Position numbers and translations under genes: made by a program. The notes beneath the pieces are model-generated. The model was not told the origin of the DNA. It was given only the letters and a program-made list of their open reading frames with translations, and did no database searches. This document shows, in pieces, positions 33,314-64,000 of a stretch of 64,000 nt of DNA. Position 1 is the first letter of the stretch, and each line of letters begins with the position of its first letter. Location: assembly GCF_009914335.1 (NCBI RefSeq), contig NZ_CP043925.1, positions 3,844,001 to 3,908,000 on the forward strand, in the 5' to 3' direction. Source of the DNA: Proteus columbae (GTDB lineage Bacteria; Pseudomonadota; Gammaproteobacteria; Enterobacterales; Enterobacteriaceae).

Positions 33314-33328
33314 GTCGGGATCTCCCCG

Positions 33329-33353: not shown

Positions 33354-33370
33354 GGTTTATCATAGAAAGG

Positions 33371-34345: not shown

Positions 34346-34365
34346 AAAACCCTTTCTCCACATTT

Positions 34366-35418: not shown

Positions 35419-35440
35419 ATTCCTACTCCTGTGTCCTAAA

Positions 35441-36370: not shown

Positions 36371-36380
36371 CATCAATTCC

Positions 36381-38027: not shown

Positions 38028-38077
38028 AAGGTATCCCTGGTAAGGTAAACTCGGTTCATAATCGGAAAAATTAGTGG

Positions 38078-39664: not shown

Positions 39665-39678
39665 GCGAACCCTCATCA

Positions 39679-39721
39679 TTTGCTAACGCTATGCTAATTT
39701 TTGCTACTTCGAGTTAGCAAG
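39679..39721 (-). promoter_or_regulatory. Operator-like cluster upstream of the FGGY kinase operon
   Basis: Inverted repeat TTTGCTAAC (39679-39687) with GTTAGCAAG (39713-39721), and two further copies of the TGCTA core at 39692 and 39702. It lies 15-57 bp upstream of the kinase start. It is a good candidate operator for the LacI-family gene that ends the operon. A weak CRP-like TGTGATGCAGATCTAC (7 of 10) is at 39765-39780. Confidence 0.55.
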
Positions 39722-43957: not shown

Positions 43958-43969
43958 AAGATTTGATCA

Positions 43970-43998
43970 GTGAAGCACGTTGATATTACGTGCCTCAC
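43970..43998 (-). other. Intercistronic stem-loop between nikA and nikB
   Basis: Stem GTGAAGCACGT (43970-43980) with ACGTGCCTCAC (43988-43998), one mismatch, loop TGATATT. No T-run. It lies between the binding-protein gene and the permease genes. Confidence 0.65.
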
Positions 43999-44028
43999 TT
44001 ATTTTGGTTAATCTCATTGATGCATTAA

Positions 44029-45603: not shown

Positions 45604-45614
45604 GTTATTCTCCT

Positions 45615-46811: not shown

Positions 46812-48317
46812 ATGAATCGAATCTCACGATTAACGGCTGATATTACCCGTGCCGATTTTGCCTTAACGCACCAACAGCAATTACTTCAATTGCTAACTCA
46901 ACACTTTCCGACTAAGTATCGTTCTCTATTTGCGACGCCAGAGAAAAAGTCGGATGACGTGATTGAGTGGTATTCGCCTGTTTCTGGTAATCCTGTCGCC
47001 TTAACGTCGCTACAAGGGCAAGAACAGCAAGAAATAAGACGTATTTTAGATGAACGCCTTAACGATATTAAAACGCAAGCGGCGCTATTAGCATCGCAAA
47101 ATAGAATTACGGATGAAGAGCGCCATCTTTTAGATACAGCATCGACGCTACCTGATAGCGAAAGTGTCTATATTATTAATGGGCAACCCGTTATTACATG
47201 GTGGCCACGCACAACACCATTGCCGCCACCTATTGCACAAGTCACCGCAGGCGCAAGTGCGGCGGCTGCGGGTGCCGCGCTTGCTGATGTACCCGCCAAA
47301 ACACGCAATCGCTGGCTACGTTGGCTATTACTCTTCTTATTCTTGCTATTTTTAATTTTATTGGCGTCTTGGTTAAAAGGCTGTTTTGATCCGAAAGCGG
47401 TTCCTCCTGTGGTTGAAGAGAAACCTGCCGCTGTCATACCGCCAAAACCAGAGCCTGTTCCTGAGCCAGAGCCAATCCCTGAACCCGTTCCAGAACCTAT
47501 ACCAGAGCCTATTCCTGAGCCTGTACCAGAACCAGCACCAGTGCCCAAGCCTGTGCCAGTGAAAAAACTCACTCCATTAGAAGCTTGTGTACAAGATGAA
47601 TTGAAAAAAGCGGGTGTGACCGAGAAAGCCGCAAATACAACCTGTGAAAATCGCTTAGCCAGTAAAATTAAACAAATGTGCCCCGCAGATCGCCCAGCGG
47701 AACTTGCACCTCAAGTGATCCTTATCTTTGATGCCTCTGGTTCTATGGCGCTGAGCATGAATTTAACGGAGAGTGATTTAGACTATATCGCTTCAACTGG
47801 ACAACTTTTCCCAGGTTATGATGCCGAACCTCGACGGATCACAACCGCAAGAAACGCAGCAATAAAAATCATTAATAACATTCCGTCAGATATGAAAATT
47901 ACCACCGTTGTGGCATCTGACTGTGGTGTTGTGAAATCAAGCCCTGCTTATGGTGGTAATGAGAGATCAAAATTACTCAGTTACATTAAACGTATTGAGC
48001 CCGATAGTGGCACACCATTAGCCGAGTCTATCAAACGTGCAGGTAATTTAATTAAAGGCAATAATCGTGACACCATTATTGTGTTGTTATCAGACGGTTT
48101 AGAGTCTTGCGATCAAGACCCTTGTGCCGCAGCCAGAACCTTAAAACGCGCTCACCCTCGCGCCGTCATTAATGTGGTGGATATTTTAGGTACTGGTGCA
48201 GGTAACTGTGTGGCAAATGCCACTGGCGGTAAAGTCTTCACGGCGCGTAATGCGAATGAAGTCAGTTTAATGACTCGAAAAGCGATTGAAGATTATATTC
48301 CAAAGAACTGTAAATAA
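46812..48317 (+). CDS. Membrane-anchored vWA protein with SrfA-like N-terminal domain
   Basis: 501 residues. A cytoplasmic domain (about 1-135) shares WYSPVSG (53-59) and GQPVIT (124-129) with SrfA downstream. A single membrane helix follows (about 168-188, preceded by RNRWLR, so N-in), then KGCF, then a PEP-repeat stretch (211-250) of the TonB/spacer type. The periplasmic vWA domain (about 300-495) has an intact MIDAS DASGS (307-311) and LLSDGLESC. Several cysteines in the periplasmic part may form disulfides. It is separated from srfA by a terminator and 560 bases, so it is a separate unit, but its domain sharing ties it to the srf locus. Confidence 0.82.
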   Translation: MNRISRLTADITRADFALTHQQQLLQLLTQHFPTKYRSLFATPEKKSDDVIEWYSPVSGNPVALTSLQGQEQQEIRRILDERLNDIKTQAALLASQNRITDEERHLLDTASTLPDSESVYIINGQPVITWWPRTTPLPPPIAQVTAGASAAAAGAALADVPAKTRNRWLRWLLLFLFLLFLILLASWLKGCFDPKAVPPVVEEKPAAVIPPKPEPVPEPEPIPEPVPEPIPEPIPEPVPEPAPVPKPVPVKKLTPLEACVQDELKKAGVTEKAANTTCENRLASKIKQMCPADRPAELAPQVILIFDASGSMALSMNLTESDLDYIASTGQLFPGYDAEPRRITTARNAAIKIINNIPSDMKITTVVASDCGVVKSSPAYGGNERSKLLSYIKRIEPDSGTPLAESIKRAGNLIKGNNRDTIIVLLSDGLESCDQDPCAAARTLKRAHPRAVINVVDILGTGAGNCVANATGGKVFTARNANEVSLMTRKAIEDYIPKNCK

Positions 48318-48345
48318 TGATTGATTACTGTTTCTAATATTTAAC

Positions 48346-48381
48346 TCACCCTCTTTGGTTTCACATTGAGGGTGAATTTTT
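48346..48381 (+). terminator. Terminator after the vWA gene
   Basis: Stem TCACCCTC (48346-48353) with GAGGGTGA (48368-48375), followed by ATTTTTT. Confidence 0.8.
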
Positions 48382-48511
48382 TCACGTATTACGTGTATTT
48401 TATTATTATATTGAAGTTCACAAGCTCTATATCTTATCTATTTAAGAGCATTCCTTAATTAGGTATTTTTTTCCTTTTTTTATTTCCTCATTATTCAGAA
48501 TAAACCTATTT

Positions 48512-48527
48512 TGTGATTATTATCACA
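48512..48527 (+). promoter_or_regulatory. Perfect CRP site upstream of srfA
   Basis: TGTGATTATTATCACA matches all 10 positions of TGTGA-N6-TCACA. It lies about 385 bp before the srfA start, so a long leader or a more distant promoter must be involved. It predicts cAMP-CRP control of the srf operon. Confidence 0.7.
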
Positions 48528-48898
48528 ACAGTTAGATGATCATTAATAGTTTATTCTTTTATATTTTGTCTTTTTTTTCTTCTATTTCATTATTTTTTAA
48601 TGTAAAACTCAATATCTCGGTGATTTAATCCATATATTTAAGAAAATATAGCGCAACCTGTAACATCATTATTTAATTATCATAATCGTTATCTTAATAT
48701 TCCCTCTTTCACTCAAGAAAAATAAAAAAGCCTTTAATAATAATCAGTTAATTAACCCTAAATAATCCGCTAGATAGACACCCAATTTCTGATAATATAA
48801 AATGTATATCAATTTTATATCTTTATTTTTAGCCTTAAAGCCTATTTACGGATAAGCCAACTTACCCATAGATAATCTTGCCTAGCGGAATGATCGTC

Positions 48899-50374
48899 GT
48901 GAATAAAGCATTCTTACGAAGTGGTAAATTAGAAAATTACCTCCCTATGGGAGAAAATGGACAGGCTGTTTATATCTCGGCACTGCAGCTACGTGAAACT
49001 CTACGTTTAAGAGGAAAGGCACATATTTCTCAATGTCTTGCTATTCCTCAGCCAAATGAAACAGGCGAGCGTATTGACTGGTATTCACCGATTGACGGCT
49101 CTGTTATTCCTTGGTCTGCGGCTTCAGAAGAAGAGCGCACTGCCGCTTATGCTCTACTGAAAAAGAATCAAGATGATTTAATCGCCTTTAGTGAACAAGA
49201 GCAGCAAAGAGCTGGAAATAAAGAAAGCCAGCTTTTTGGCGCCCTGCTCAGTAAAACTATCCAATTTCCTGACGAAAACCATATTTTTATTGTTGATGGA
49301 CAACCGATTATTACCTTTTGGGGGTTTGTCAGCGCCAATCAGCAACTTAGAGTTGACCCTGTTGCTTGCTTAAAGCCAGCGGTTGCGCCAATCGCACCAA
49401 CATCAACAGCGGTTCCACCAGCACAAGAAAATGTTATCATTACTGACACTAAGCGTCCTTGGTGGCGTTTCTTATGGTGGCTGTTACCTTTATTATTACT
49501 TCTACTCGCTATTTTCTTCTTAAGAGGCTGTTTTTCAACGCCAGCATTACCTACGGTCGATATTAAAACGCCAGATATTGAAGCGCCTAAATTGTCAGAT
49601 CCTACGCTTGAAAAACCGAAAGTCCCCACAGTGGTAACTAACGGTCACAGCGTCGGTGTGCCAACAGGCACTGTTCACACTGGAACATTAGGCACTGTAG
49701 ATGCTAATGGAAATGTGATTAATGGCACTGACGGTAACGGTGCAGTGGTTGATCCTAATACGGGTTTACCTGTGGTTGATCCTCAAATAGACAATAACCA
49801 AGGTGCCTTACCTGAAGGAACATTGCCAGAAGATGCGCAACAACCGAATGTACCACCCGTTGATCCTGCGGCACAAAATGAGCAACCGAAAACAGATAAC
49901 AACCCAAATACAGGGAATGAGAGCAACACGCCTAACCCTCCTGTTGATCCCAATGCTCCACCCGATGTTACACCGCCTACGACAGTTGATAACACAACAC
50001 CTCTGACCATTCCTGCGAATGCATTAGCGAATGGCTCAACCCAATTCCTAAATGGTCAATGGAAAGCAGGGGCGGGAATTCAAGATCAAAAAACAGGTAA
50101 GCCACTGAGCCTAAATTACCAACTCGATAATGGCAAAGGACAAGTCGTAATGACTCGCAGTGATGGCGTGACCTGCAAAGCACCTGTCAACGCAGCCGTT
50201 AATCAAGGCGGATTAAATATTAATAACCAAGGTCAGGCTCTGTGTAGTGATGGCTCAAACTATTTGATGCCAAACATTATTTGCCAGCCAGGAAGCCAAA
50301 ATATTGCTGATTGCCAAGGAAAATATGAGAACAGTCAGCCATTCCCATTATCAATGAAGCGGGAGAATAACTAA
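48899..50374 (+). CDS. srfA: SrfA family protein
   Basis: Membrane-anchored member of the SrfA family, named from Salmonella SsrB-regulated factors; molecular role not established. 491 residues from GTG at 48899 (GCGGA 9 bases upstream); ATG at 48890 is possible. The cytoplasmic domain has WYSPIDG (61-67) and GQPIIT (134-139), shared with the vWA protein upstream. One membrane helix (about 190-208) is preceded by KRPWWR and followed by RGCF. A long Pro/Asn/Asp-rich periplasmic linker (about 215-370) leads to a C-terminal domain with four cysteines (TCKAP, LCSDG, ICQPG, DCQGK). The next gene starts 3 bases after the stop. Confidence 0.82.
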   Translation: MNKAFLRSGKLENYLPMGENGQAVYISALQLRETLRLRGKAHISQCLAIPQPNETGERIDWYSPIDGSVIPWSAASEEERTAAYALLKKNQDDLIAFSEQEQQRAGNKESQLFGALLSKTIQFPDENHIFIVDGQPIITFWGFVSANQQLRVDPVACLKPAVAPIAPTSTAVPPAQENVIITDTKRPWWRFLWWLLPLLLLLLAIFFLRGCFSTPALPTVDIKTPDIEAPKLSDPTLEKPKVPTVVTNGHSVGVPTGTVHTGTLGTVDANGNVINGTDGNGAVVDPNTGLPVVDPQIDNNQGALPEGTLPEDAQQPNVPPVDPAAQNEQPKTDNNPNTGNESNTPNPPVDPNAPPDVTPPTTVDNTTPLTIPANALANGSTQFLNGQWKAGAGIQDQKTGKPLSLNYQLDNGKGQVVMTRSDGVTCKAPVNAAVNQGGLNINNQGQALCSDGSNYLMPNIICQPGSQNIADCQGKYENSQPFPLSMKRENN

Positions 50375-50377
50375 TTC

Positions 50378-53362
50378 ATGTTAGCGCCACTGACCGATTA
50401 TAAAGATAAAATTACCCTTATCCGAGACAGTAATATTCAGTTTCTGGATTTCGGTTTTAAGCTACCACAGCGCAAAGAGTACGGTGAGTTTGTTAAAAAA
50501 GGCGAAAACGGCCCGTTAATGCGACTCATCTATAATGAACGAGATGATAACTATCTTTATCCTGCACCTAAAAATCAGCCTCAAACACCGAGAGAAGCTG
50601 AATTTAGTTTCTCCCTTGATGAGTCATTAACGCTATTAAATGACACATGGTTGCCAGTGCCATTTTTCCGTTTTAATCCGCCACGCGCATTCTCTCAAGG
50701 CCCTGATAACTGGGTAAGAATGATGTTCCATCAACTGCCAGAGCCCGATGAAGATGGACATACACACCGTGTTGTTGTGGCATTTGATACCCGTATTGAG
50801 CCTAATCGCGCCAATACCGCTTATCTTGCACCAAACGAAGAAGATGTCCGCTCTGGTGTTGCTTTTGCTCTGGCCTATTTAGGCTATGAAGTTGAGAACT
50901 TCCTTGAAACACCATGGATTGATGGTTGGTTAAAGGAAGTCTTTAGCGAAAGAGCGCTGGCTGTAACCAAAATGTACCATGATGAACTCGAAGAGGCGCT
51001 CAAAGAGTTTCAACATCAGGCTCATTATCTCAATTTACTCAATATATTAGGTGAGAAACTCCGCTTACCTGAAATCAAAATTAACGAAACCAAACCGCAA
51101 GAGCCCGCAATTGAAGTTGATCTTATTCTTGATGTAGGTAACTCACGTACTTGTGGGATATTAATTGAAGATCATATCAATGATAACAAAGGGTTGACGC
51201 AACTCTATGAAATGACACTGCGTGATTTAAGCCACCCTTATCAAATCTATAATGAGCCCTTTGAAAGCCGTGTTGAGTTTGCGCAAGCTGAATTTGGTAA
51301 ACAAGATTTTTCAGTTAATAGTGGTCGTAATAATGCCTTTATGTGGCCCACCATTGGTCGCGTTGGCCCAGAAGCCAATCGCATGGCAGCGCAACGCTTA
51401 GGTACTGAAGGTTCAACAGGTATTTCAAGCCCTAAACGCTATTTATGGGATGATTCGCCTTATTCGCCGGGTTGGCGCTTTAGTCGCTCTTTTGGTCAAA
51501 CAGACAGAGAGCCACTGGCGACTGCTGTGCCGATGACTTATCTTCTAAACGATCACGGTGAACCGTTATTCCGTTTAGAGCCTGATGATCGCATGCCAGT
51601 ATTTACGCCAAACTATACTCGCAGTTCATTAATGACCATGATGTTAACCGAAGTGTTGGCGCAGGCATTAACACAAATGAACAGCCCAGCTCAACGCCTT
51701 AAAATGAGTCACGCAAGTGCGCCTCGTCAATTGCGCAATATCATTTTGACTATTCCACCTGCGATGCCAAAACCAGAGCGCGCTATTTTTGAGACGTGCA
51801 TGGAAAACGCATTAGGGCTAATTTGGAAAGCCATGAATTGGGACCCGACTGACGAAAAACTGCGTTTTGACGGTAAAGACGAACAATGTCGTATACCGAT
51901 GCCAAACATCCATGTGAAATGGGATGAAGCCACTTGTGGTCAGTTAGTTTATCTCTACAACGAAACACAAATTAAATTTGGTGAGCGTACTGAAGCCTTT
52001 TTTGCCAGCCAAGTGCGTGAAGATAACCGCGCATTAACGGGTGATAGTACATTAAAGATTGCTTCAATTGATATTGGTGGCGGAACAACCGATCTCGTTA
52101 TCACACGCTATAAATTGGATACGGGTACAGGTAGCAACGTCAAAATTATTCCAACACAGTTATTCCGTGAAGGATTCAAAATTGCAGGTGATGATATTTT
52201 ATTAGATATCATCCAAATTTGTGTGTTGCCTGCATTACGCACAGCATTAACGGATGCGGGTATTTCTGATGCTGATGCTCTGATGTCTTCTCTTTTTGGC
52301 AGTGAAGGTTTAGATGCAGGGCAACAAGTGTTACGCCAACAGCTTACCCTACAAATCTTTAATCCGATTGGGTTAAAGATTTTAAGCCAATACGAAAACT
52401 ACGATCCCTTAGTTCCTCATGAAGGCATTAACAGTACTTTTGGTGAATTACTTAACGTTCTACCGACAGAACATGTACGTCGTTATATTGATGACGCAAC
52501 CAATAAAGAGCTCGGTGGTGGAGAAAGTTTCTCCATTTTAAATGTGCCTGTACAAATTAACTTTGCGCAATTGCACGCTGAATTTATTTCAGGTGAACGT
52601 ATTAATATCACACGTAGTTTAAAAGCACTGTGTGAAGTACTTTATTACTACTCCTGTGATGTTTTACTGCTGACAGGTCGCCCTTCTCGTTTACCGGGAA
52701 TTCAAGCGCTATTAAAAGTATTACAGCCTGTACCGCCTTCTCGTATTCTGCCATTACACGGCTACAAAACAGGGGGTTGGTATCCATTCAACAAAAAAGG
52801 CCGTATTGACGATCCAAAATCAACAGCGGCAGTCGGTGCAATGTTGTGTTTAATGGCTGAAAATGCACGTTTACTCAACTTCTACTTCTCGACAGGTAAC
52901 TTTAAAACTTACTCAACAGTACGTTATTTAGGGATGTTGGATAACAACAACACTATTTCCGATAATGACGTTTACTATCGTGATATTCAGGATAAATTTG
53001 AGCCTGATCCTGATACCTATTTTGAAGTCAGAGGCGGAATACGCTTAGGTTTCCGTCAATTGGATAATGCCCGTTGGCCTGCGTCTCCACTTTATACCTT
53101 ACGCATTAAAAATCCGAAATTGGCACAGCAACTTAGCCAAGAAGACAGCGTATTGCATATCAAGTTGGGAGAAGAAAGAGGTGCCTCCGGCCATAATGAT
53201 GACAATAAATCTGAAAAATTACGTATTGAAGAGATGGAGCTTATTAATGGCAAAGGTGGCGTTAATAAGAACGGTTTAAGCTTCAAACTCAATACGTTAG
53301 CAGATAGTGGTATTGGTGAAACATCCTATTGGCTGGATAGCGGGAGTGTATTAGGTAAATGA
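50378..53362 (+). CDS. srfB: SrfB family protein, actin/Hsp70-fold ATPase
   Basis: 994 residues, the SrfB ('virulence factor SrfB') length. No signal peptide and no membrane helix, so cytoplasmic. Actin-fold ATPase motifs are in order: phosphate-1 LILDVGNSRTCGIL (about 247-260), phosphate-2 IDIGGGTTDLVIT (about 563-575) and adenosine-type LLTGRPSRLPGIQALL (about 765-780). This supports an ATP-dependent switch or polymer role, which is inference from the fold. The stop overlaps the srfC start (ATGA), so SrfB and SrfC are made in a fixed ratio. Confidence 0.88.
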   Translation: MLAPLTDYKDKITLIRDSNIQFLDFGFKLPQRKEYGEFVKKGENGPLMRLIYNERDDNYLYPAPKNQPQTPREAEFSFSLDESLTLLNDTWLPVPFFRFNPPRAFSQGPDNWVRMMFHQLPEPDEDGHTHRVVVAFDTRIEPNRANTAYLAPNEEDVRSGVAFALAYLGYEVENFLETPWIDGWLKEVFSERALAVTKMYHDELEEALKEFQHQAHYLNLLNILGEKLRLPEIKINETKPQEPAIEVDLILDVGNSRTCGILIEDHINDNKGLTQLYEMTLRDLSHPYQIYNEPFESRVEFAQAEFGKQDFSVNSGRNNAFMWPTIGRVGPEANRMAAQRLGTEGSTGISSPKRYLWDDSPYSPGWRFSRSFGQTDREPLATAVPMTYLLNDHGEPLFRLEPDDRMPVFTPNYTRSSLMTMMLTEVLAQALTQMNSPAQRLKMSHASAPRQLRNIILTIPPAMPKPERAIFETCMENALGLIWKAMNWDPTDEKLRFDGKDEQCRIPMPNIHVKWDEATCGQLVYLYNETQIKFGERTEAFFASQVREDNRALTGDSTLKIASIDIGGGTTDLVITRYKLDTGTGSNVKIIPTQLFREGFKIAGDDILLDIIQICVLPALRTALTDAGISDADALMSSLFGSEGLDAGQQVLRQQLTLQIFNPIGLKILSQYENYDPLVPHEGINSTFGELLNVLPTEHVRRYIDDATNKELGGGESFSILNVPVQINFAQLHAEFISGERINITRSLKALCEVLYYYSCDVLLLTGRPSRLPGIQALLKVLQPVPPSRILPLHGYKTGGWYPFNKKGRIDDPKSTAAVGAMLCLMAENARLLNFYFSTGNFKTYSTVRYLGMLDNNNTISDNDVYYRDIQDKFEPDPDTYFEVRGGIRLGFRQLDNARWPASPLYTLRIKNPKLAQQLSQEDSVLHIKLGEERGASGHNDDNKSEKLRIEEMELINGKGGVNKNGLSFKLNTLADSGIGETSYWLDSGSVLGK

Positions 53363-56073
53363 ATATGATGGATGAAAAACAGTTAACAGCCAAATGGGAT
53401 GCCATTTATCAAGGCGCAGGTAAAGCCATTGATTGGGTAACGGCCGTAAGAGGTAATGCACCTCGTTTAAATACCGAAGCCGATAGCCTTATCTATCGTC
53501 TGCGCCGTAGCCGTAATATGGCGAAAAATCTCAGTTTAGCGACACAACGACCAATGTCTGTGGGCTTTTTTGGTCTGTCTCAGGCAGGAAAATCGTACCT
53601 GATTTCAGCACTTGCCGCAGGACAAGAAGGCCGATTAAGAACGAGCATGTCAGGTAAAACCCTTGATTTTATCGACCACATCAACCCACCAGGTGGCGGT
53701 AAAGAAGCCACAGGCTTAGTGACTCGCTTTAGTCGCAATGCTACAAAAGGTACTCAAGAGTTTCCTGTCGAGCTACATCTTTTCAGCGAAATTGAGATTG
53801 TTAAAATTCTCGCCAATGCTTATCTGTATGACTTTAATCAGGAAAAAATTGAATTTGAATTAGATGATGAGAAAATTTCTCGTTTAATCAAATCATTAAG
53901 CACACAATGCAGTGCGACACCTGTTGCTGGTATTACTCATGATGATGTTGTTTCATTATGGGATTATCTGCAACGCCATGCGGAAAAAAGCCAGAAAAAA
54001 CTGGCGACAACCTATTGGCCTAAAGCGATCGAATTAGCGCCTTATCTCAGCATTGCGCAACGCGCTAAACTCTTTTCTGTGTTATGGGGCGATATTGCAG
54101 AGCTGACATCTGCTTATCAACGTTTTAGCACCACACTTGCTTCTTTAGGTAATGCATCTCTTGTTTTGGCTCCGCTCTCTTCTTTAGTCAAAGAGCAAGA
54201 TGGCGTATTAGTACAAGCAGACAGTATTATGAATGTGGATATGTTAGAGCGTCTCAATACTGCCAATGATAGCCAGATCAGTATTTGTCCTGTTCATGGT
54301 GATCGTATTGATGCCCCTGTCACATTGTCATTAGCCGAATTAACTGCACTGACGGTTGAATTAGTCGTCCCATTATTAGATGCACCGAGTAAGGCTCTAT
54401 TTGAACACGTTGAACTACTCGATTTTCCAGGCTATCGCGGTCGCTTAGGTGTTGAAACCATGGCGGATGTACGTCGTCAGGTTAACGATGACAGCGCTAA
54501 CCCACTCGCTCAGCTTATCTTACGGGGCAAAGTTGCCTATCTGTTTGAACGTTATACCGATAACCAAGAGATGAATGTGCTGGTGGTATGTACCGCATCA
54601 AACAAGCAATCAGACGTAAAAGAAGTCGGTGCAGTTCTCACAGAGTGGATCAATAACACGCAAGGTAAAGATGCACAAACCCGCGCTAAACGCCCTTCTG
54701 GTTTAATTTGGGCAATGACCATGTTTGATATGCGTATTACCAACTCTTTAACCCTGAATGAAGCGTTATTACGCCAATCATGGGGTAAAGGTGGCATGAT
54801 CAAAATGGCCATGTTAGAGCGCTTTGGTCAATATGAATGGATGTCATCAGATTGGATCAATGGTGAAGCCTTCAATAACACCTTCTTAGTGCGTAAACCG
54901 GGTGTACCTACCCCATTTATTCAAATCAGTAATGGCAAAGAGACTGTCTTAAACGAGGACAGTGTTTCACAGTTACATCTGATGAAAAAAACCTTTGCTG
55001 AAGACGAAACTGTCCAACGCTATATTCGTGAGCCAGACCAAGCATGGGATGCTATGTTGTCGCTTAACGATGGCGGCATGCAACGCCTTGCCGACTACCT
55101 TGAAACCGTTGCGTTAAAATCACTGAAACTTGAACGTATTAGTGAGCAATTGCAAGAAATTCAACGTGATTTAATCGGTCATCATCTTGAAAAATGGTAT
55201 CAATCAGGTGGTGAAGAAGAGCTCCAAGTCAAACGCCGTAATGCAGCCACTATTTTACGCTTTATGCAAAGTCGCCCTTATTTGCAAGGTGCTTTACTGG
55301 ATTACCTGCTGCCTTCTCGCAAATCACTCTACGATCTGTATATGCAGGAAAAAGAGGTTATCGATACGCTTTCAGATAACAAAAAAGCGACTCAAGCGCC
55401 AGTTTCTGCCTTTGCAGCTATAGAGCAACCGACTTTTGATCTCTTTAGCGATGCCCCGATTTCTCTAGAGCCTGAAGAAGATGAAGCCCCTAAAGGTCAC
55501 GGCAATGAGGTTACCTATCCTAAAAAAGTGATGGCATTATGGATAAATCATCTGCGTAGCCTGCCTGATAACAGTACCTTGTTAACCTATTTAGGCATTG
55601 ACCAAGAAATTATGGTGTTGCTAGTTGATGAGCTTATCACGGCTATTAATCGCCTAGGTGTTGAACAACGCATGTTGAAAACCCTTGCAGGGACAGAAGC
55701 CATTGCCCGTCGTGATGACTTAGCCGAACAGCAGTCATCCCGTGTTTATAATGTACTGGGTGATTTTATTACTTGGTTTAATTTCAAAGATAACGGTGTT
55801 GAGAAGCCAGATAGCAAAATCAATGTCGGTCATAAAATCTTTGAAAAACCCGATAACACTAGCGTGCAATGGGGTGATGATGAGCGCTTAGTTCGCTTAC
55901 CTACCAACCCTGTTAACTACACCCTTTTATTTGTAATTGATTGGCTTATCGCTTTATCAGCGATTATTACTGAGAATGCGGGGCATTCTGCGGGAAGAGA
56001 GATCAGTGCTGAACAAAACGCACTATTAGGCCAAATAATTCAAACTATGAAATCATCCGTCGTGGAGTCATAA
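53359..56073 (+). CDS. srfC: SrfC family protein, dynamin-like GTPase
   Basis: 904 residues, the SrfC ('putative virulence factor') family. GTPase motifs: G1 GLSQAGKS at 72-79, a G2-type Thr in GGGKEATGLVTRF (about 112-124), and G3 DFPG at about 355-358 (LLDFPGYRGR). The G1-to-G3 gap is very long, so a large insertion splits the GTPase core; the region after it is helical. No membrane helix is seen. Start ATG at 53359 overlaps the srfB stop; ATGs at 53365 and 53368 are alternatives. In this operon it sits directly before the membrane protein gene. Confidence 0.86.
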   Translation: MNMMDEKQLTAKWDAIYQGAGKAIDWVTAVRGNAPRLNTEADSLIYRLRRSRNMAKNLSLATQRPMSVGFFGLSQAGKSYLISALAAGQEGRLRTSMSGKTLDFIDHINPPGGGKEATGLVTRFSRNATKGTQEFPVELHLFSEIEIVKILANAYLYDFNQEKIEFELDDEKISRLIKSLSTQCSATPVAGITHDDVVSLWDYLQRHAEKSQKKLATTYWPKAIELAPYLSIAQRAKLFSVLWGDIAELTSAYQRFSTTLASLGNASLVLAPLSSLVKEQDGVLVQADSIMNVDMLERLNTANDSQISICPVHGDRIDAPVTLSLAELTALTVELVVPLLDAPSKALFEHVELLDFPGYRGRLGVETMADVRRQVNDDSANPLAQLILRGKVAYLFERYTDNQEMNVLVVCTASNKQSDVKEVGAVLTEWINNTQGKDAQTRAKRPSGLIWAMTMFDMRITNSLTLNEALLRQSWGKGGMIKMAMLERFGQYEWMSSDWINGEAFNNTFLVRKPGVPTPFIQISNGKETVLNEDSVSQLHLMKKTFAEDETVQRYIREPDQAWDAMLSLNDGGMQRLADYLETVALKSLKLERISEQLQEIQRDLIGHHLEKWYQSGGEEELQVKRRNAATILRFMQSRPYLQGALLDYLLPSRKSLYDLYMQEKEVIDTLSDNKKATQAPVSAFAAIEQPTFDLFSDAPISLEPEEDEAPKGHGNEVTYPKKVMALWINHLRSLPDNSTLLTYLGIDQEIMVLLVDELITAINRLGVEQRMLKTLAGTEAIARRDDLAEQQSSRVYNVLGDFITWFNFKDNGVEKPDSKINVGHKIFEKPDNTSVQWGDDERLVRLPTNPVNYTLLFVIDWLIALSAIITENAGHSAGREISAEQNALLGQIIQTMKSSVVES

Positions 56074-56076
56074 TTC

Positions 56077-57093: not shown

Positions 57094-57102
57094 GAAAGTC
57101 GC

Positions 57103-59106
57103 ATGAAAAAGGCGCATTGGCTTACTCTTATTCTCAGCGGTTTAATTCTAACAGCACCAGCAAGTGCTGAAGAGAAAAAGCCGCTATTACAAGAGGGTAA
57201 AAAGACCCTCTATCAACGTGTATTAACTTATCCAGGTTGCCAAGTTGCTGACAAGATTGGCGCAACAGGAAAAGAGCAACCTGCATTCAGCCGTTTTTAT
57301 GTTTATCAGCGTCAAAAACAAGGCGCCAATGAGTGGCTACAAGTTGGCCCTGATAGCTTAGGTCATATTAGCGGTTGGATGAATGCAAGTTGTACATCAG
57401 AGTGGAAAATGCAGTTAACTCTCGCATTTACTAACCCTGCGGGTCGTAACCCAATGCTGTTTTTCAAAGATAAGCAAACGGTTGAAAGCTTACTTGAAAG
57501 CCCAACCCCTGAAAAACAGTACAAGCCCTTTTTAGCAGATATCAAAAACCAAAAAGTGAATCCGGCTGTTTTAGCAAAAGAGCCCGATTATATGATTGAT
57601 CAGAAAAGTAATTTCTATCTACTGCCGGTATTAGGTTCAGATGAAGTCTTTACTGATGCTGGCTATAAAGTACGAGTGCTCAATGTGGCTTCTGTCTCTT
57701 CACAAACCAAAGACAGCAAAGACGCACAGAATGCGAATGCTACTGCAAACAGTACAAAACCAGCAACACCTAACAGCAAAGATGCTGACAATATGATGCA
57801 AGGTTTTTCTGCCGCAGTGGTGTTTGTTATCGACTCAACAATATCAATGGATCCTTACATTGATAGAACCAAAGAAGCGATTCAAAAGGTTTACGCACAA
57901 GTCGAAAAAGACAATATGTTGGATAAGGTCAAATTTGGTTTAGTGGCATTTCGCTCTAATATCAAAGCCGTACCTGCTTTGGAATACGACAGCAAAATGT
58001 TTGTTAATCCCAATGATGTCAAAGACGGCCCTGACTTCCTCAATAAAGTAAAAGAGTTACGCCAAGCGAAAGTCTCAAGCAGTCGTTTCGATGAAGATGC
58101 TTATGCGGGTGTAATGCAAGCCCTTGATGATGTTGATTGGACACGCTTTGGTGCGCGTTACGTTATTTTAATCACCGATGCAGGCGCATTAACGGGAGAT
58201 GATCCTCTTTCATCAACTAAGCTCGATGCTGAACAAATTCGCCAAGAAGCCGCTTATCGCGGTGTTGCTCTTTATACACTGCATTTAAAAACGCCATCAG
58301 GTGCAAAAAATCACGCTTCTGCACAAGCACAATATGAGGCGCTAACGCTCAATCCTTTCTTACACAAATCGCTTTACTACCCAATTAATTCAGGGGATAT
58401 CAATAACTTTGGTCGGATGGTCGATAGCCTAGCAACCGCTGTAACCACTCAAATTCAAACGGCTTATCGTGGTGAAGCGGCTGTGGGTAGCGCACTAAAT
58501 GCTGATCCTGCTTATAGCAAAGACAAAGAAACAAACACCTTACTTAACGATGCGCACGATTTAGGCTATGCCATGCGTTTAGCCTATTTAGGTGAAAAAC
58601 AAGGCACTAAAGCACCACCTGTGTTTAAAGCATGGATAAGCGACCGTGATTTATTGCAGCAAAATATCCCAACTACAGAAGTACAGGTCTTATTGACTAA
58701 AAGTGAGTTGAGTGATTTAAGCGATGTCATGAAAAAAATCGTTAATGCTGCTAATGAAGGTTTGATCTCTCCAGACAATATGTTTGCGGATTTGCGTTCG
58801 ATTGCCGCCACAATGGGTAACGATCCAAACCAAATCAAACAAGGTTCAGCAACCAAATTAGGCGAAATGGGCTTACTCGGTGAATACGTCGAAAACCTCC
58901 CTTACTTAAGTGAGGTGCTTGGTTTAGATGAAGAAACGTGGAAAAGCTGGGATGGCCTTGAGCAAGAGAAATTTATCCGCCGACTCAATACGAAGTTGCA
59001 ATATTATCAACGCTATAACGAAGATGTTGATCGTTGGATATCCCTTGCACCACAAAGCGATCCTCGCGATCACGTTTATCCTGTTCCACTGGAAAACCTG
59101 CCTTAA
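57103..59106 (+). CDS. Exported vWA protein, PpkA periplasmic-domain-like
   Basis: 667 residues. A signal peptide (about 1-22, ASA before EEKK) makes it periplasmic. The N-terminal part (about 30-130) has RVLTYPGCQV, WLQVGPDSLGHISGWM and LTLAFTNPAGRNPMLFF, a pattern I associate with the extracytoplasmic half of the T6SS kinase PpkA. The vWA domain (about 238-430) has the MIDAS-type DSTIS (244-248) and LITDAGALTGDDP. A helical C-terminal third follows. No kinase domain is present. The stop overlaps the ATPase start (TAATG). Confidence 0.8.
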   Translation: MKKAHWLTLILSGLILTAPASAEEKKPLLQEGKKTLYQRVLTYPGCQVADKIGATGKEQPAFSRFYVYQRQKQGANEWLQVGPDSLGHISGWMNASCTSEWKMQLTLAFTNPAGRNPMLFFKDKQTVESLLESPTPEKQYKPFLADIKNQKVNPAVLAKEPDYMIDQKSNFYLLPVLGSDEVFTDAGYKVRVLNVASVSSQTKDSKDAQNANATANSTKPATPNSKDADNMMQGFSAAVVFVIDSTISMDPYIDRTKEAIQKVYAQVEKDNMLDKVKFGLVAFRSNIKAVPALEYDSKMFVNPNDVKDGPDFLNKVKELRQAKVSSSRFDEDAYAGVMQALDDVDWTRFGARYVILITDAGALTGDDPLSSTKLDAEQIRQEAAYRGVALYTLHLKTPSGAKNHASAQAQYEALTLNPFLHKSLYYPINSGDINNFGRMVDSLATAVTTQIQTAYRGEAAVGSALNADPAYSKDKETNTLLNDAHDLGYAMRLAYLGEKQGTKAPPVFKAWISDRDLLQQNIPTTEVQVLLTKSELSDLSDVMKKIVNAANEGLISPDNMFADLRSIAATMGNDPNQIKQGSATKLGEMGLLGEYVENLPYLSEVLGLDEETWKSWDGLEQEKFIRRLNTKLQYYQRYNEDVDRWISLAPQSDPRDHVYPVPLENLP

Positions 59107-59798
59107 TGATCCAGATTGAAGGCATGGCAATTACGCGTGGTGATACGCAACACGGCTTTCGTGTTGCGCTTCCTTCATTGACCCTTGAGAAAGGGGAAAT
59201 CGGCGCGCTAACTGGCTTAAGCGGTTGCGGTAAAAGCACCTTATTGGAAATGTTCGGGCTGATTTTACGTCCCGATGAATTAACCCATTTTCAACTCGGT
59301 GATGATTTAATTATCACGCAAGCGGTGTTGAGTAATGAACAAGCGCAACTCTCATCATTACGTGCTGAAAAATTGGGTTTTATGCTCCAAAGTGGCGGGT
59401 TACTTCCCTTTTTAACCGTCATGCAAAATATCCAATTACCTCGCAAAATGCTGGGATTAACACTGCACTCTTCTTGGCTTGATCACGCTATTGATCATTT
59501 GCAACTACGCCCCTTGCTTAATCGCCTTCCTCGTCAGCTCTCCATTGGTGAACGTCAACGCGCTGCTTTTATTCGTGCCATTGCTCATGAACCCGCGTTA
59601 TTGCTTGCCGATGAGCCCACTGCCGCTCTCGATCCCCATAATGCACAAGCGCTATATGCATTGATTGTGGAGATGGTAAAACAACTCGATATCTCTGCGC
59701 TGGTTGTTAGTCACGATTGGTCTTTAGTCGAGCGTTTTGGCTTCAGCCACTATCATGCACAACTAGAAGGAGGCGGTAGTGTCTTTATCAAACAATAG
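59106..59798 (+). CDS. ABC ATPase, LolD/TagT-like
   Basis: 230 residues. Walker A GLSGCGKS (37-44), Q-loop MLQSGGLLPF, Walker B LLLADEPTAALD and H-loop VVSHDW are intact. The signature reads LSIGE instead of LSGGQ (RQLSIGERQRAAF), a known type of variation but one that could lower activity. It belongs to the LolCDE/MacB/FtsE branch that drives FtsX-type permeases. The permease start lies inside its 3' end (20-base overlap), so the pair is translationally coupled. Similar to TagT of the T6SS Tag module by context. Confidence 0.87.
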   Translation: MIQIEGMAITRGDTQHGFRVALPSLTLEKGEIGALTGLSGCGKSTLLEMFGLILRPDELTHFQLGDDLIITQAVLSNEQAQLSSLRAEKLGFMLQSGGLLPFLTVMQNIQLPRKMLGLTLHSSWLDHAIDHLQLRPLLNRLPRQLSIGERQRAAFIRAIAHEPALLLADEPTAALDPHNAQALYALIVEMVKQLDISALVVSHDWSLVERFGFSHYHAQLEGGGSVFIKQ

Positions 59799-61014
59799 CG
59801 CCAATCCTAATCGCCTTGGCTTACTCAGTTCACTCGCTTGGCGAGACTTAATTTATGATCGCAAAGTCGCTCTCTGTATTGTGTTCTCTTTAGTCTCTGT
59901 TATTGCACCACTGTTACTGCTATTTGGACTAAAAAACGGCATTGTGACGCAGCTTCACAACCAACTGCTAAATGATCCTCGTAACCTTGAAATACGTATG
60001 TTAGGCAATGGTAATTATCCACAAAGTTGGTTTAATGAGATTGCACACAAAGAAGAGGTTCGTTTTGTTATCCCATTAACTCGTAGCTTAAACACACAAG
60101 CCGATATTGTGATTGATGGGCAACATTTTATTGATAATGCGGAAATTATTCCGACAGCAGAAAACGATCCGTTATTAGAGGATGTGGCTATTCCCCAAAA
60201 TGCAGACACCTTAGTACTTTCGGCCAATGCCGCTCAAAAACTACAAGCAAATGTCGGCGATAGTGTGCGCTTATTTATCAGCCGTAAACTTAATGGCGTT
60301 AATGAGCGCGCCAAACGTACCTTTACTGTTGGCGCCATTATCAGCGATAGCAAATTTCCAAGAGCGGCAGCTTTTGTTTCTCTTGATGTTTTAGTGGCAA
60401 TGGAAGATTACCGAGATGGTTATCAAACGCCGCTTTTTGGCATAACACAAGGCACTGAAGCGAAACCAAGAACTCAATTTGCTAAAGCTCGCCTTTATGC
60501 AAAAAATTTAGATGCCATTGCACCACTAGATGATTGGTTTAGACAACAACACATTGATGTGATGACACAAAAAAGCCAAATAGATTCTGTAAAAGCAATC
60601 AGCTACGTTCTTAACGTTATTTTTTCCGTGATTGCTTGGGTATCACTATTAGGCTGTATTGCCTCATTAATTGGCGCCTTCCTTGCCAATATTGATCGCA
60701 AACGTAAAGACATGGCAGTACTACGCCTATTGGGTTTTCGTCAATTTGCAGTTTCTTTATATATTGTGTTGCAAGCGCTGTTATTAACGAGTGTTGCCTT
60801 TATTTTAGCCCTTGGGCTTTATGGTATCGGTAGCACCTTATTTACCACATTATTAGGCACACATTTACCTGAACAATCCTTTGTCTGTCAGTTAACATTT
60901 TGGGATTTATTGATTGCCATGTGCAGTGCCTTACTTGTGGCTTTAGTGGTGGCAAGTATTGGTGCATTACGTGCCGTTTCGATTGAACCTGCGGAGAGCT
61001 TACGTGAAATTTAA
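59779..61014 (+). CDS. FtsX-type ABC permease, TagS-like
   Basis: 411 residues from a GTG at 59779 preceded by AAGGAGG. Layout: one membrane helix near 30-50, a large periplasmic domain (about 55-270, MacB_PCD type) and three helices at the C-terminus (about 275-410) with RKDMAVLRLLGFRQF, the typical FtsX motif. It pairs with the ATPase before it. Such systems move force or a signal across the membrane rather than always exporting a substrate. The SUMF1-like gene starts inside its 3' end. Confidence 0.87.
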   Translation: MSLSNNSANPNRLGLLSSLAWRDLIYDRKVALCIVFSLVSVIAPLLLLFGLKNGIVTQLHNQLLNDPRNLEIRMLGNGNYPQSWFNEIAHKEEVRFVIPLTRSLNTQADIVIDGQHFIDNAEIIPTAENDPLLEDVAIPQNADTLVLSANAAQKLQANVGDSVRLFISRKLNGVNERAKRTFTVGAIISDSKFPRAAAFVSLDVLVAMEDYRDGYQTPLFGITQGTEAKPRTQFAKARLYAKNLDAIAPLDDWFRQQHIDVMTQKSQIDSVKAISYVLNVIFSVIAWVSLLGCIASLIGAFLANIDRKRKDMAVLRLLGFRQFAVSLYIVLQALLLTSVAFILALGLYGIGSTLFTTLLGTHLPEQSFVCQLTFWDLLIAMCSALLVALVVASIGALRAVSIEPAESLREI

Positions 61015-62560
61015 TTTATCGCTTCTAACTTTATCATTCGCGCTGTTATCTAGCAGTTTTACCGCATCTGCCAAATGGGACGATAAATTCGTTAACCCAA
61101 AAGCTTTGCCTGATGATGTGATCTTGCCCTTCCCTTGTGAAGGTTCAATGGTCTTTCGCCAAGTCACTATTCCATTAAGCCAACCGCTACAAGACTACAG
61201 CGTGACATTAGGGCAAGAAGGCGATGAATGGGGTTATTTAGAACAATCACGAGCAGAACATATTGCGGGTAGCTTTCCATTAAAAGGTAAAGAGAAAGGC
61301 CGTTACTACCTTATGGCAAAATACCCCGTTACCGATCTGCAATATAACGCCATGCAGAGCGTGATTAACGGTAAAGAGTGCCCTGTTGCTTCAAATAAAT
61401 TACGTTTACCAAAAGTGAATATCAGTTGGTATGAAGCAATGCAATTTGCAGACCAATATAACCAATGGTTAAGAAGCAAACATCCCGAAGCACTCCCTGT
61501 TGAAGATGGCGCAAAAGGTTTTGCAAGATTACCGACAGAAACGGAGTGGGAATTCGCGGCGCGTGGTGGCTTAAAAGTGTCTGCCTCAGAATTTCGTGAT
61601 ATGCGCTTCCCGATGCCAGAAGGTACCAAAAACTATATTTGGTCTGCGGGCAGTCAATCTGCGAATGGCTCTTTACAGTTAACCGGTTTGTTATCGCCTA
61701 ATCCACTAGGCTTACATGACATGCTCGGTAATGTCGCTGAAATGATGTTTGAACCCTTTAGATTAAACAAACTCGACCGCTTACATGGACAAGCTGGTGG
61801 CTTTATTGTGCGTGGTGGTAGTTATCTCACCCCAGAAAGCGATATGCGCAGTTCATGGCGTCAAGAAGAGCCTTATTACACCAATACCGGTGCAAATAAA
61901 AACAAATACACGGGCTTTCGTTTAGCGATTGTCGCGCCAGCATTGACATCGAGAGACAAAATCAAAGAGATCGAAAAAGAGTGGCAACAACTGGGCAATG
62001 AGAAGCCCGCTAACGATAAATCAAAAACCAATAGCGATAACTCGATTAATAGCCTAAATACGCTCTCAACCCAGGTGCAAGATGAAGCACTGAAAAAGCA
62101 GTTAGCTGAATTGAAAAATACATTACGCGCAAATGCCCAACTGCGTGATGAGCAACGAGATCAAGCTATCCGCACATCACTGCAATTGGGCGCATTTTTA
62201 TGTACCAAATTAAAAGATGATGGCGAGTTCTACGACAGATTAATTGCATTACATGAAAAAAATTGTCCTGCGGGCACAAAAGATGCCACTTGCGAACGAC
62301 GCCAAGAGCAAGTTAACGAACATAAGAAAACCCTCGACTTTGTCGTGAGTTATTACGCAGACACATTAGTGGATATGGCAACAACTTATGATGCCTCTTT
62401 GGTGAAACCACAAATTGACGTTGTACACCAATTGATGGAAGCCAGAGGAAAATCAAATTTAAATACGTACCTTTCAACGTATATGCAGGGACTCCAAGGA
62501 TATTGGGCTAACGGTAAAGTTTCACGGAACGAATGGCTTGAAGCGTGCAAAAAACAATAA
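61004..62560 (+). CDS. Periplasmic SUMF1/FGE-fold protein, TagR-like
   Basis: 518 residues from a GTG at 61004 (GGAGAG upstream). A signal peptide (about 1-22, ASA before KWDD) directs it to the periplasm. The FGE-sulfatase fold (about 60-320) has KYPVTDLQYNAM, WYEAMQFADQYN, RLPTETEWEFAARGG, GLHDMLGNVAEMM and GGFIVRGGSYLT. The catalytic cysteines of formylglycine-generating enzymes are absent: the usual GFRCA position reads GFRLA. It is therefore a binding or structural SUMF1 protein. A coiled-coil C-terminus (about 335-470) follows. The position and fold match TagR of the T6SS Tag module. Confidence 0.83.
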   Translation: MKFNLSLLTLSFALLSSSFTASAKWDDKFVNPKALPDDVILPFPCEGSMVFRQVTIPLSQPLQDYSVTLGQEGDEWGYLEQSRAEHIAGSFPLKGKEKGRYYLMAKYPVTDLQYNAMQSVINGKECPVASNKLRLPKVNISWYEAMQFADQYNQWLRSKHPEALPVEDGAKGFARLPTETEWEFAARGGLKVSASEFRDMRFPMPEGTKNYIWSAGSQSANGSLQLTGLLSPNPLGLHDMLGNVAEMMFEPFRLNKLDRLHGQAGGFIVRGGSYLTPESDMRSSWRQEEPYYTNTGANKNKYTGFRLAIVAPALTSRDKIKEIEKEWQQLGNEKPANDKSKTNSDNSINSLNTLSTQVQDEALKKQLAELKNTLRANAQLRDEQRDQAIRTSLQLGAFLCTKLKDDGEFYDRLIALHEKNCPAGTKDATCERRQEQVNEHKKTLDFVVSYYADTLVDMATTYDASLVKPQIDVVHQLMEARGKSNLNTYLSTYMQGLQGYWANGKVSRNEWLEACKKQ

Positions 62561-62586
62561 CAGAGACTTGGGATAATAGGTGTGGT

Positions 62587-63270
62587 ATGAACAAACAACT
62601 TATGGCAGTACTTGGCATTAGTGCTGTGCTTGCCCTATCAGGATGTCAAAGTAATAGCGGTACTGACCCTCGTTTGAAAAATAACAGTGATATGGAGTTT
62701 TTCAGCAAATCAGGCATTACGGCTTGTGCGGGTGGTGCGGCGATTGGTGCATTAGGCTGTTTAGTCTCAAACTCCAGCAATAAAGGCGCATGTATGCTCA
62801 TTGCTGCTGTCGCTGGCTGCGGGGTAGGTATTGGTGCAAATGCCTATTTAGACAATAAACGCCAAAACTATGCGACGAAAGAAGAGATGCTCAATTCAAT
62901 GATTGCTGATATTCGAAATGAAAATCAGCGTTTACAGAGTGCCTCTAACACAGCGAAAGCGGTTATTGCTGATGATAAAAAAGCCATTGCAAAAATTCAG
63001 CAAGAAATGAAACAACAACGTTTAAATAAAGAAGCTGCAGAGAAACAACTGAAAGGTATTGATGCCAATATTGCAGCACTGCGTTCTCGTTTAGCAGATA
63101 TGAAAAAACGTGAAGGTGAGTGGCGAGATATTGCAGCGCAGAGTCGTCAAGATGGCTTAAAAACAGCGCAACTTGATAAACAAATCGATGGGATGAAGAA
63201 GCAAGTGACCTCTTTACAAGAAGAACTTGATAGCCTTTATACTCAACGGACAGCAATAAAGCTTAGTTAA
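62587..63270 (+). CDS. Coiled-coil lipoprotein with glycine-zipper-like segment, TagQ-position
   Basis: 227 residues from the ATG at 62587. Lipobox LSGC is at the end of an 18-residue signal; the residue after Cys is Gln, so sorting to the outer membrane is expected. A Gly/Ala/Cys-rich hydrophobic stretch (about 50-90, AGGAAIGALG and AAVAGCGVGIGANA) is followed by a long coiled coil (about 100-225). In gene order it occupies the place of the outer-membrane lipoprotein TagQ next to the SUMF1-like gene. Function not known. Confidence 0.8.
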   Translation: MNKQLMAVLGISAVLALSGCQSNSGTDPRLKNNSDMEFFSKSGITACAGGAAIGALGCLVSNSSNKGACMLIAAVAGCGVGIGANAYLDNKRQNYATKEEMLNSMIADIRNENQRLQSASNTAKAVIADDKKAIAKIQQEMKQQRLNKEAAEKQLKGIDANIAALRSRLADMKKREGEWRDIAAQSRQDGLKTAQLDKQIDGMKKQVTSLQEELDSLYTQRTAIKLS

Positions 63271-63287
63271 CGTTAAAAAGGATGATA

Positions 63288-63776
63288 ATGAAATTTTTAC
63301 CTCTTTCCCTTGTTGGCATGACCTTACTATTAAGCGGTTGTGTCACCAATCCCGCTGATTGTGATCCAACAACGGGTGACGTCAGTATAATTACTAAGTT
63401 TAACTGTAATTATTCAGGGACTTACGACAATCGCGTCGAGCAAAAAAAAGCTATTCTCGCTAATGAGAAAGCATTAAATACAGAGTTTAAAGCCGTTCTT
63501 GCTGCCATTGAGAAAGAAAAGCAACAAACCAATGCCTCTCTCAAAAGTAAGCAAGCTAGCCAACAAGCATTAAACCAATCAATGAATAATCTGTTAAATC
63601 AAATTCGCCAAAAAACGAAAGGGCAAAATGATATTCAAAAACAGATCAATGAAATTGATAAACAAATGAAAGCGGCACAAAACAATCCATCAAAATCAGT
63701 GATGGAAAAACAACTTGAATTAGAGAACTTACAAAATCAAGTCATTAACCTACAAAGTGATTTAGGTCTTAAATAA
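63288..63776 (+). CDS. Small coiled-coil lipoprotein at the end of the srf operon
   Basis: Function unknown. 162 residues from the ATG at 63288 (AAGG 7 bases upstream). Lipobox LSGC with Val following Cys (CVTN), so outer-membrane sorting is likely. After a short Cys-containing segment (CDPTTGD, FNCNYSG), the protein is one long Gln/Lys-rich coiled coil. It ends the operon at a terminator. Confidence 0.8.
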   Translation: MKFLPLSLVGMTLLLSGCVTNPADCDPTTGDVSIITKFNCNYSGTYDNRVEQKKAILANEKALNTEFKAVLAAIEKEKQQTNASLKSKQASQQALNQSMNNLLNQIRQKTKGQNDIQKQINEIDKQMKAAQNNPSKSVMEKQLELENLQNQVINLQSDLGLK

Positions 63777-63780
63777 GCCT

Positions 63781-63816
63781 AAAAAGGCTCTCTATTATTA
63801 TTTAGAGAGCCTTTTT
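63781..63816 (+). terminator. Terminator of the srf operon
   Basis: Perfect 14-bp stem (63781-63794 with 63803-63816, core GGCTCTCTA and TAGAGAGCC), 8-base loop, ending in T-run. The remaining bases to 64000 are AT-rich and I see no gene in them. Confidence 0.92.
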
Positions 63817-64000
63817 ATTTAATTCCATTCTTATTTTTTATTTATTTTCATCGTGATTTATATTATCAAAATATTATTTATATAATATTAATAACAACTA
63901 ACAGACCTCTTTAATAAAACAACCTTATTTAAGCTAACGTGTTATTTTTTATTCCATTAAAAATGGACTCATCATTATAATTCCATCGCTTAATAATGCA

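Follow-up and report, generated by a model that had tools for sequence, protein, structure and literature searches.

Introduction

The TagQRST-PpkA system, belonging to the H1 type VI secretion system (H1-T6SS), reports outer-membrane damage in Pseudomonas aeruginosa, where TagQRST also mediates retaliation (PMC11881912; all papers are cited here for the accessible part of their text). The SrfABC proteins are known from other observations: a swarming defect is described for Salmonella srfABC (PMC4219756), which according to a review is controlled by the RcsF and PmrAB envelope-stress systems (PMC6543913), E. billingiae possesses srfABC without a type III secretion system (T3SS) (PMC2897811), and SrfABC of Xenorhabdus stockiae is cytotoxic to cell lines, its three proteins interacting (PMC6950479). 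In addition, a neighbourhood that unites SrfABC, TagQRST and PpkA was described in host-associated Deltaproteobacteria, only one of which has T6SS machinery genes (PMC3608642), and genes for post-translational control of the T6SS stand beside srfABC in Xenorhabdus (PMC6950479), so that the linkage is not new and has been in print since 2013. This paper discusses such a neighbourhood in Proteus columbae, contained in a window of 64,000 nucleotides (assembly GCF_009914335.1, contig NZ_CP043925.1, positions 3,844,001 to 3,908,000, forward strand), in which srfABC is followed in one operon by putative homologues of the sensor genes, the PpkA-like protein having no kinase domain.

In the open-licence literature, as far as the accessible excerpts go, no account was found that deals with the lack of the kinase, with a dynamin-like fold of SrfC, with its two kinds or with the standalone module described below. 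The Rickettsia "Srf" effectors (PMC11258249, in the excerpt available) and the Bacillus surfactin papers, by their titles, have the name alone in common with SrfABC.

Sensor Genes and Their Relation to PpkA and TagQRST

Eleven neighbouring genes, designated A0, A, B, C, M, V, T, S, R, Q and L, occupy the plus strand at positions 46812 to 63776 of the window, and all their open reading frames (ORFs) are open at the positions given below. As an earlier note on this DNA, made from the letters alone, had described, ten of them are nearly gapless: from SrfA (A) to the last lipoprotein (L) the successive gaps are 3, -4, 3, 9, -1, -20, -11, 26 and 11 bases.

The exported protein V (57103..59106, 667 amino acids, with a signal-peptide-like start) is 37% identical over 651 columns (E 4e-143) to residues 316-940 of the P. 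aeruginosa PpkA (P0237, 940 amino acids), which is named a serine/threonine-protein kinase and has kinase and vWA domains. V has no counterpart of the N-terminal kinase part of PpkA, and a Pfam scan gave a vWA domain (28.4 bits) and no kinase domain. It is followed by the ABC ATPase T (59106..59798, ABC_tran 79 bits), the FtsX/LolC-type permease S (59779..61014, matching FtsX and MacB_PCD) and the SUMF1-fold protein R (61004..62560, FGE-sulfatase 117 bits), which begins with a signal-peptide-like stretch. T, S, R and Q were compared with their counterparts in the genome G902. There a TagQ above the cut-off of its model (334.5 bits, cut-off 300) adjoins a SUMF1-fold protein, and on another contig T and S adjoin a V (L169) which is preceded by a transmembrane-like and a proline-rich stretch; because the contig end cuts this V, its own kinase is not in view. 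Its best 120 relatives are 49-63% identical to it except for one near-copy, and most of them, mainly from Pseudomonas, carry a kinase domain; the two contigs would presumably join. T is 41% identical to the G902 ATPase and S 34% to the permease, and R matches the SUMF1 protein with 252 bits as a profile (positions 36-515 of 521) and 28% identity over 553 columns pairwise. That V, T, S and R are homologues of the extracytoplasmic part of PpkA, TagT, TagS and TagR is supported by these sequence comparisons. C45 and C126 are the only cysteines kept throughout 13 R proteins, and no cysteine stands in the consensus after GGSY, read against what we take to be the position of the catalytic cysteine pair of formylglycine-generating enzyme.

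The gene in the place of TagQ encodes a predicted lipoprotein with a glycine zipper and a coiled coil (Q, 62587..63270). It matches the TagQ model NF041250 at 30.1 of 300 bits, which is weak because 112 of 369 genomes have sub-threshold matches at 1e-5 or better, usually confined to the glycine zipper, and the model was rejected as unspecific evidence for Q. Two other TagQ-like loci (L118, L119) lie beside WD40-caspase proteins and are unrelated. The last gene, L (63282..63776), encodes a second predicted lipoprotein with a coiled coil and a lipobox-like LSGC, and matches no Pfam family above cut-off. The relationship of the vWA, ABC, permease and SUMF1 proteins to PpkA, TagT, TagS and TagR proposed in the earlier note is thus upheld by the identities given above, and its proposal of a TagQRST sensor set holds for T, S and R together with the vWA protein, whereas for the lipoprotein as TagQ the similarity is weak and nonspecific.

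The gene order also appears to agree. In P. aeruginosa, tagR has been placed downstream of pppA-ppkA (PMC3224232), and tagQ to tagT are PA0070-PA0073, pppA being PA0074 and ppkA PA0075 in a strain list (PMC6657622). These placements make the order V-T-S-R-Q consistent with ppkA-tagT-tagS-tagR-tagQ. In the usual numbering, pppA and ppkA stand the other way round from this strain list.

Several kinase-less V proteins of about 650-665 amino acids (P0037, P0053, P0056, P0083, P0099) are named "serine/threonine protein kinase" or "PpkA" in databases, although their precomputed Pfam domains are vWA only or none; some entries so named are therefore without a kinase, and such names should be read with caution.

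SrfABC and the Membrane Protein M

The families SrfA, SrfB and SrfC are all above their cut-offs, in this order: A (48890..50374, NF040486, SrfA_fam, 450 bits with cut-off 150, one transmembrane-like stretch), B (50378..53362, PF07520, 1345 bits) and C (53359..56073, PF10139, Virul_Fac, 1020 bits). SrfC of the window shares 97-98% identity with five Proteus records and 89% with that of P. hauseri, and its G1-G4 motifs (GxxxxGKS / T / DxPG / TxxD) are invariant in the alignment of the long type, as defined below. The best PDB fold matches of its AlphaFold2 (AF2) model are SynDLP, BDLP, CjDLP, IniA and mitofusins; the search of its sequence against those in the PDB gave no meaningful similarity to solved structures. 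As modelled, SrfC is a dynamin-like protein whose GTPase motifs are intact, and on such a model it would be expected to hydrolyze GTP, bind membranes and oligomerize. SrfB is a candidate actin-like ATPase by its conserved DxGN- and DxGGGTTD-type motifs (DVGNSRT and DIGGGTTD in the window), which we take to belong to the phosphate-1, phosphate-2 and adenosine motifs of the actin/Hsp70-like proteins.

M (56077..57093) has no family match and is a predicted bitopic membrane protein. Its AF2 model, also used for fold searches, has an N-terminal beta-sandwich (1-103), a proline-rich linker of low confidence, a transmembrane-like helix (184-206) and Sel1/TPR-like C-terminal helices (230-337), and this C-terminal part has a relative in the protein that precedes V in the standalone modules described below. 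The profiles of A, A0 and M match one another through their common transmembrane and proline-rich parts, so counts of these labels are not used as evidence.

Conservation of the Neighbourhood

SrfB is present in 17 of the 19 Proteus congeners searched and in 90 of the 198 genomes scanned from the family. In a phylum-wide set of 398 genomes, 21 have a match above the PF07520 cut-off and 22 have one at E <= 0.001. The window proteins were mapped on 84 SrfB loci, fetched from some of the SrfB places found, mostly one per genus, with T counted only at >= 100 bits. V, T and S are together in 19 of the 84, R in 18, Q in 18 and L in 16. Three further loci were counted with these 19, making 22 long-type loci: L047, L034 and L032. 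L047 has Q and L, and in its genome (G584) the cluster is split near M (C1:518885-520822 and 637508-640567), with V about 115 kb away from SrfB; L032 is a fragment at the end of a contig, and the M-V-T-S-R-Q-L part of its genome (G170) is found on a different contig (L150). The other 62 loci are short, with SrfC at >= 300 bits in 58. Q and L do not close the cluster everywhere: in the four loci L046, L047, L050 and L089 they lie upstream of SrfA, and therefore the set has been kept together through rearrangement.

A second scan was made with the long-type SrfC, for which reason it cannot measure the frequency of the short type, and its 80 named loci are the best of at least 544 relatives. They come from Enterobacterales, Pasteurellaceae, Gilliamella, Pseudomonas, Azotobacter, Halomonadaceae, Aeromonas, Alcaligenes, Taylorella, Burkholderiaceae, Nitrosomonas, Insolitispirillum and Methylococcus, among others, and 75 of them contain every one of B, C, V, T, S, R, Q and L; among the five incomplete ones, L220 is cut by a contig end. 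Moreover, on the plasmid pENTE01, typed as conjugative, the same eleven genes can be recognized by their annotation, position and size, in unchanged order and with a VWA-annotated gene at the place of A0, and among plasmid records V occurs in 125 and SrfC in 141, 114 of each from Klebsiella. The survey thus supports the view that the neighbourhood with SrfB/SrfC is both conserved and mobile, and that these genes and the ABC/SUMF1 genes are more than chance neighbours.

Two Types of SrfABC

In a 56-row tree, SrfB of the long loci is one clade (support 100 by SH-aLRT, a likelihood ratio support value, computed with a quick method), and the sole row labelled short within it is L032, itself a long locus. 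V is absent from all 57 genomes with only short loci and present in all five with both kinds. Motifs of SrfC were counted in the 80 of 84 loci with an ORF of >= 600 amino acids. The long type has G1 in 22/22 and G3 in 21/22, the exception being L032, which is cut by the contig end; the short type has G1 in 12/58, G3 in 18/58 and both in 9/58, while the G1 lysine is kept in 57/58. Therefore the sensor-linked SrfC is the kind with consistently intact GTPase motifs.

Standalone Modules and the Kinase

Among 369 gammaproteobacterial genomes, the profile of V matched in 39 at 1e-5, nearly full-length in 23. In 20 V neighbourhoods fetched, T and S follow V in every case, and SrfB/SrfC are in view in one (L151). 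Seventeen of these (L152-L168) form the standalone set, which leaves out L151, L150 (the Srf genome G170) and G902. They consist of a Sel1/TPR-type transmembrane protein, a vWA protein, an ABC ATPase and an FtsX permease, with no SrfABC in view, and 13 of the 17 genomes are without TssC and four have it. A small related protein precedes V in 14 loci, matching the transmembrane-like and C-terminal part of M, without its beta-sandwich, in 10; R is in view in one (L167). Kinase-less vWA-ABC-FtsX modules are thus widespread.

An unrooted tree of V had 61 rows, including 12 PpkA proteins taken from 120 listed. PpkA and the G902 protein form one clade (support 100/100), a second (100/99) holds 29 of the 31 Srf-linked V proteins, and a third (100/100) 16 of the 17 standalone ones. 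The Srf-linked V of L033 and L035 and the V of L167 stand apart on long branches in an unsure place, and in a midpoint drawing the fork joining PpkA to the Srf clade is weak (93/72). As PpkA is a single clade, one change of kinase state suffices; its direction and date, that is, gain by PpkA or loss in an ancestor of the kinase-less proteins, depend on the root. Whichever root is taken, this tree does not put the change at this locus, and the claim of the earlier note that the kinase was lost here finds no support in the 17 standalone kinase-less V-T-S loci or in the single clade of PpkA.

A PpkA-kinase profile built from seven PpkA proteins recovered all five held-out ones, and found nothing at E <= 0.001 in the ORFs of the 84 SrfB, 80 named and 21 V/TagQ loci. 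Over-long V ORFs were considered as kinase carriers (894 amino acids in L151, 978 in L216 and 778 in L244), and were rejected, the profile finding nothing in any of them; by eye, those of L151 and L216 are N-terminal extensions running over the neighbouring gene. At the level of genomes, 24 of the long type were surveyed, G193 included. TssC is absent from seven, of which G438, G743, G345 and G411 are assemblies of one or two contigs, and a search for Hanks-type kinases (Pkinase, E <= 0.001) gave no match in three (G584, G528, G465). The genome of the window has one TssC about 0.9 Mb from the operon, which is not in the T6SS locus, and its only Pkinase match is partial (39.7 bits, in a 502-amino-acid protein) and far from both.

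Proposed Role and Alternatives

On the homologies, the gene order, its conservation, the lack of a PpkA-type kinase in the neighbourhoods, the dynamin-like fold and the GTPase motifs, all of which come directly from the computation, a tentative proposal can be built: the operon may be a trans-envelope stress-response machine, in which a sensor has a dynamin/actin-like output instead of a kinase, although we would stop short of calling this probable. Q, L, R, V and T-S would form an envelope sensor of the kind that reports outer-membrane damage to PpkA in P. aeruginosa; V is without a kinase here, and the bitopic proteins M, A and A0 might carry the signal across the inner membrane to the actin-like ATPase SrfB and the dynamin-like GTPase SrfC. 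These two would form an assembly at the membrane and bring about its remodelling or sealing. The wiring of the sensor to SrfB/SrfC is suggested by the gene order, and the remodelling or sealing by the dynamin-like nature of SrfC as the output protein. The absence of the beta-sandwich of M from the short M-like protein of the standalone modules agrees with this proposal, as do the seven long-type genomes that lack TssC and the three without a Pkinase match. The swarming and envelope-stress control of Salmonella srfABC, which we take to be of the short type, are indirect hints for it.

Several observations weigh against the stress-response machine. The long-clade locus L034 has SrfA-B-C-M, yet V was not found when its genome, G193, was searched. 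L249 and L244 have V-T-S without R, Q and L in the 10-kb flank, and in L151 the V-T-S genes are in view but R, Q and L are not. L211 has V without T, S, R, Q and L in its full flank, and in L248, with R (partial), Q and L upstream, M is followed by 3 kb up to the contig end that contain no V. As the standalone V-T-S modules show, action on SrfB/C is not obligatory for the sensor. TssC is present in 17 of the 24 long-type genomes and some Pkinase match somewhere in 21. The whole-chain TM-scores of SrfC in Foldseek are low (0.12-0.22 in the first 14 rows), so only the fold of its GTPase domain is firm, and SrfB, even as a profile, matched no solved structure in the PDB. Except for the Xenorhabdus cytotoxicity work, no experiments on a long-type locus were found in the literature.

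A wider reading, which we regard as doubtful, is that the vWA-ABC-FtsX core serves bacteria in general as a receptor of envelope damage to which different cytoplasmic outputs can be attached: the kinase PpkA in the T6SS, another output in the standalone modules, and here the dynamin and actin-like ATPase pair, which would reseal or remodel the inner membrane at the damage. If true, this would be a bacterial counterpart of damage-triggered membrane repair. SrfB and SrfC have long been called virulence factors without a mechanism, and the placement of long-type SrfC among the dynamin-like proteins and beside this kind of damage receptor would give a testable pathway, the receptor part of PpkA being a widespread module in its own right.

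Alternatively, V-T-S-R-Q-L could be a lipoprotein or lipid transporter like LolCDE/MacB, which exports or inserts a cargo and is energized or positioned by SrfB/SrfC. The best NCBIfam model of T is indeed LolD and that of S is LolCE, and the best PDB match of S is LolC; the scores, however, are far below the cut-offs (120.7 of 307.75 and 34.9 of 362.45 bits, respectively), the nearest relatives of known role, TagT and TagS, act in signalling, and V is a PpkA-type sensor part, which makes transport unlikely. Bacterial dynamins protect membranes, and a defence against contact or phage attack is conceivable in which puncture of the envelope recruits SrfC to reseal the membrane or abort the cell. 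The carriage on plasmids and the retaliation mediated by TagQRST in P. aeruginosa (PMC11881912) would fit such a defence, but PADLOC, run on ten of the eleven proteins (L left out), gave no system, its only matches, to the ABC ATPase and the coiled-coil lipoprotein, being taken as noise, and the locus is chromosomal in most Proteus species (17/19), so that this too is improbable.

It is very unlikely that the SrfABC proteins are host-directed toxins or effectors whose release the Tag-like genes control, as they are found in Azotobacter, Halomonas, Nitrosomonas and Methylococcus, which to our knowledge are not animal pathogens. The presence of srfABC in E. billingiae without a T3SS (PMC2897811) also speaks against effectors, while the cytotoxicity and interaction of the X. 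stockiae proteins (PMC6950479) and the annotation as virulence factors speak for them. An action of the module in trans on a T6SS, like that of TagQRST, would account for the homology to TagQRST/PpkA, for the one TssC in the window's genome and for at least one TssC in 17/24 long-type genomes; with this TssC about 0.9 Mb away, none in the other seven (G438, G743, G345 and G411 included), and the sole, partial Pkinase match of the window's genome far from both operon and TssC, we give it very little credence.

Features around the Operon

A0 (46812..48317) has an SrfA-like N-terminal part (SrfA_fam 56.7 bits, below the cut-off of 150), one transmembrane-like stretch, a proline-rich linker and a C-terminal vWA domain with a DxSGS motif (VWA_2 36.7 bits). 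It ends 572 bases before the start of SrfA and, given this gap, is possibly a separate transcription unit. A second match of its profile in the same genome is to a TerD-domain protein (L112:14023-15219), in the C-terminal part, presumably through the common vWA domain. Immediately 3' of gene L, a terminator-like hairpin of 15 pairs with a T-rich tail lies at 63780..63817 (plus strand); the window has 35 terminator-like matches as against 17.1 in shuffles, and only this operon-end one is used. Sigma-70-type promoter matches are fewer than in shuffles (25 as against a mean of 41.1), and for this reason no promoter is claimed. Rfam and tRNA scans of the window gave no match. The window lies within a single contig of 4.11 Mb, and the locus is chromosomal in Proteus.

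Just upstream of the operon, on the minus strand (42159-46400), there are genes for an oligopeptide-type ABC transporter (binding protein and permease) and a methyltransferase, and further upstream, also on the minus strand (29053-39679), genes for a Fic/DUF4172 protein, a TctA transporter, a BNR-repeat protein, a fucose-isomerase-like protein and an FGGY kinase, possibly a sugar-use cluster. Downstream of the window (L110, about 4234-5442 and 11958-13166), two 402-amino-acid ORFs with identical N-terminal sequence and opposite orientation flank regulator-like and efflux-pump-like ORFs, which by eye we take to resemble a Tn10-type composite transposon.

Comparison with Known Systems

The operon resembles TagQRST-PpkA of the P. 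aeruginosa H1-T6SS in its homologous V, T, S and R, in having a lipoprotein in the place of Q and in its consistent gene order. It differs in being without a kinase and linked to SrfA/B/C, M, A0 and L, and in lying outside the T6SS locus and occurring without a T6SS. The deltaproteobacterial srf-tag neighbourhood likewise has SrfB, SrfC, TagQRST and a gene called ppkA together, but there a kinase role is assumed for PpkA (PMC3608642). The short-type enterobacterial SrfABC have homologous SrfA, SrfB and SrfC in the same order, whereas their SrfC, of about 695-844 amino acids, has mostly degenerate GTPase motifs, and there are no sensor genes. With the LolCDE/MacB transporters, T and S share the ABC ATPase and FtsX-type permease families, though both remain far below the curated LolD and LolCE cut-offs. 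Finally, SrfC shares its predicted GTPase fold and motifs with bacterial dynamin-like proteins such as SynDLP, BDLP, CjDLP and IniA, but differs from them in having no detected sequence similarity to the solved structures and in being partnered with a candidate actin-like ATPase and a putative envelope sensor.

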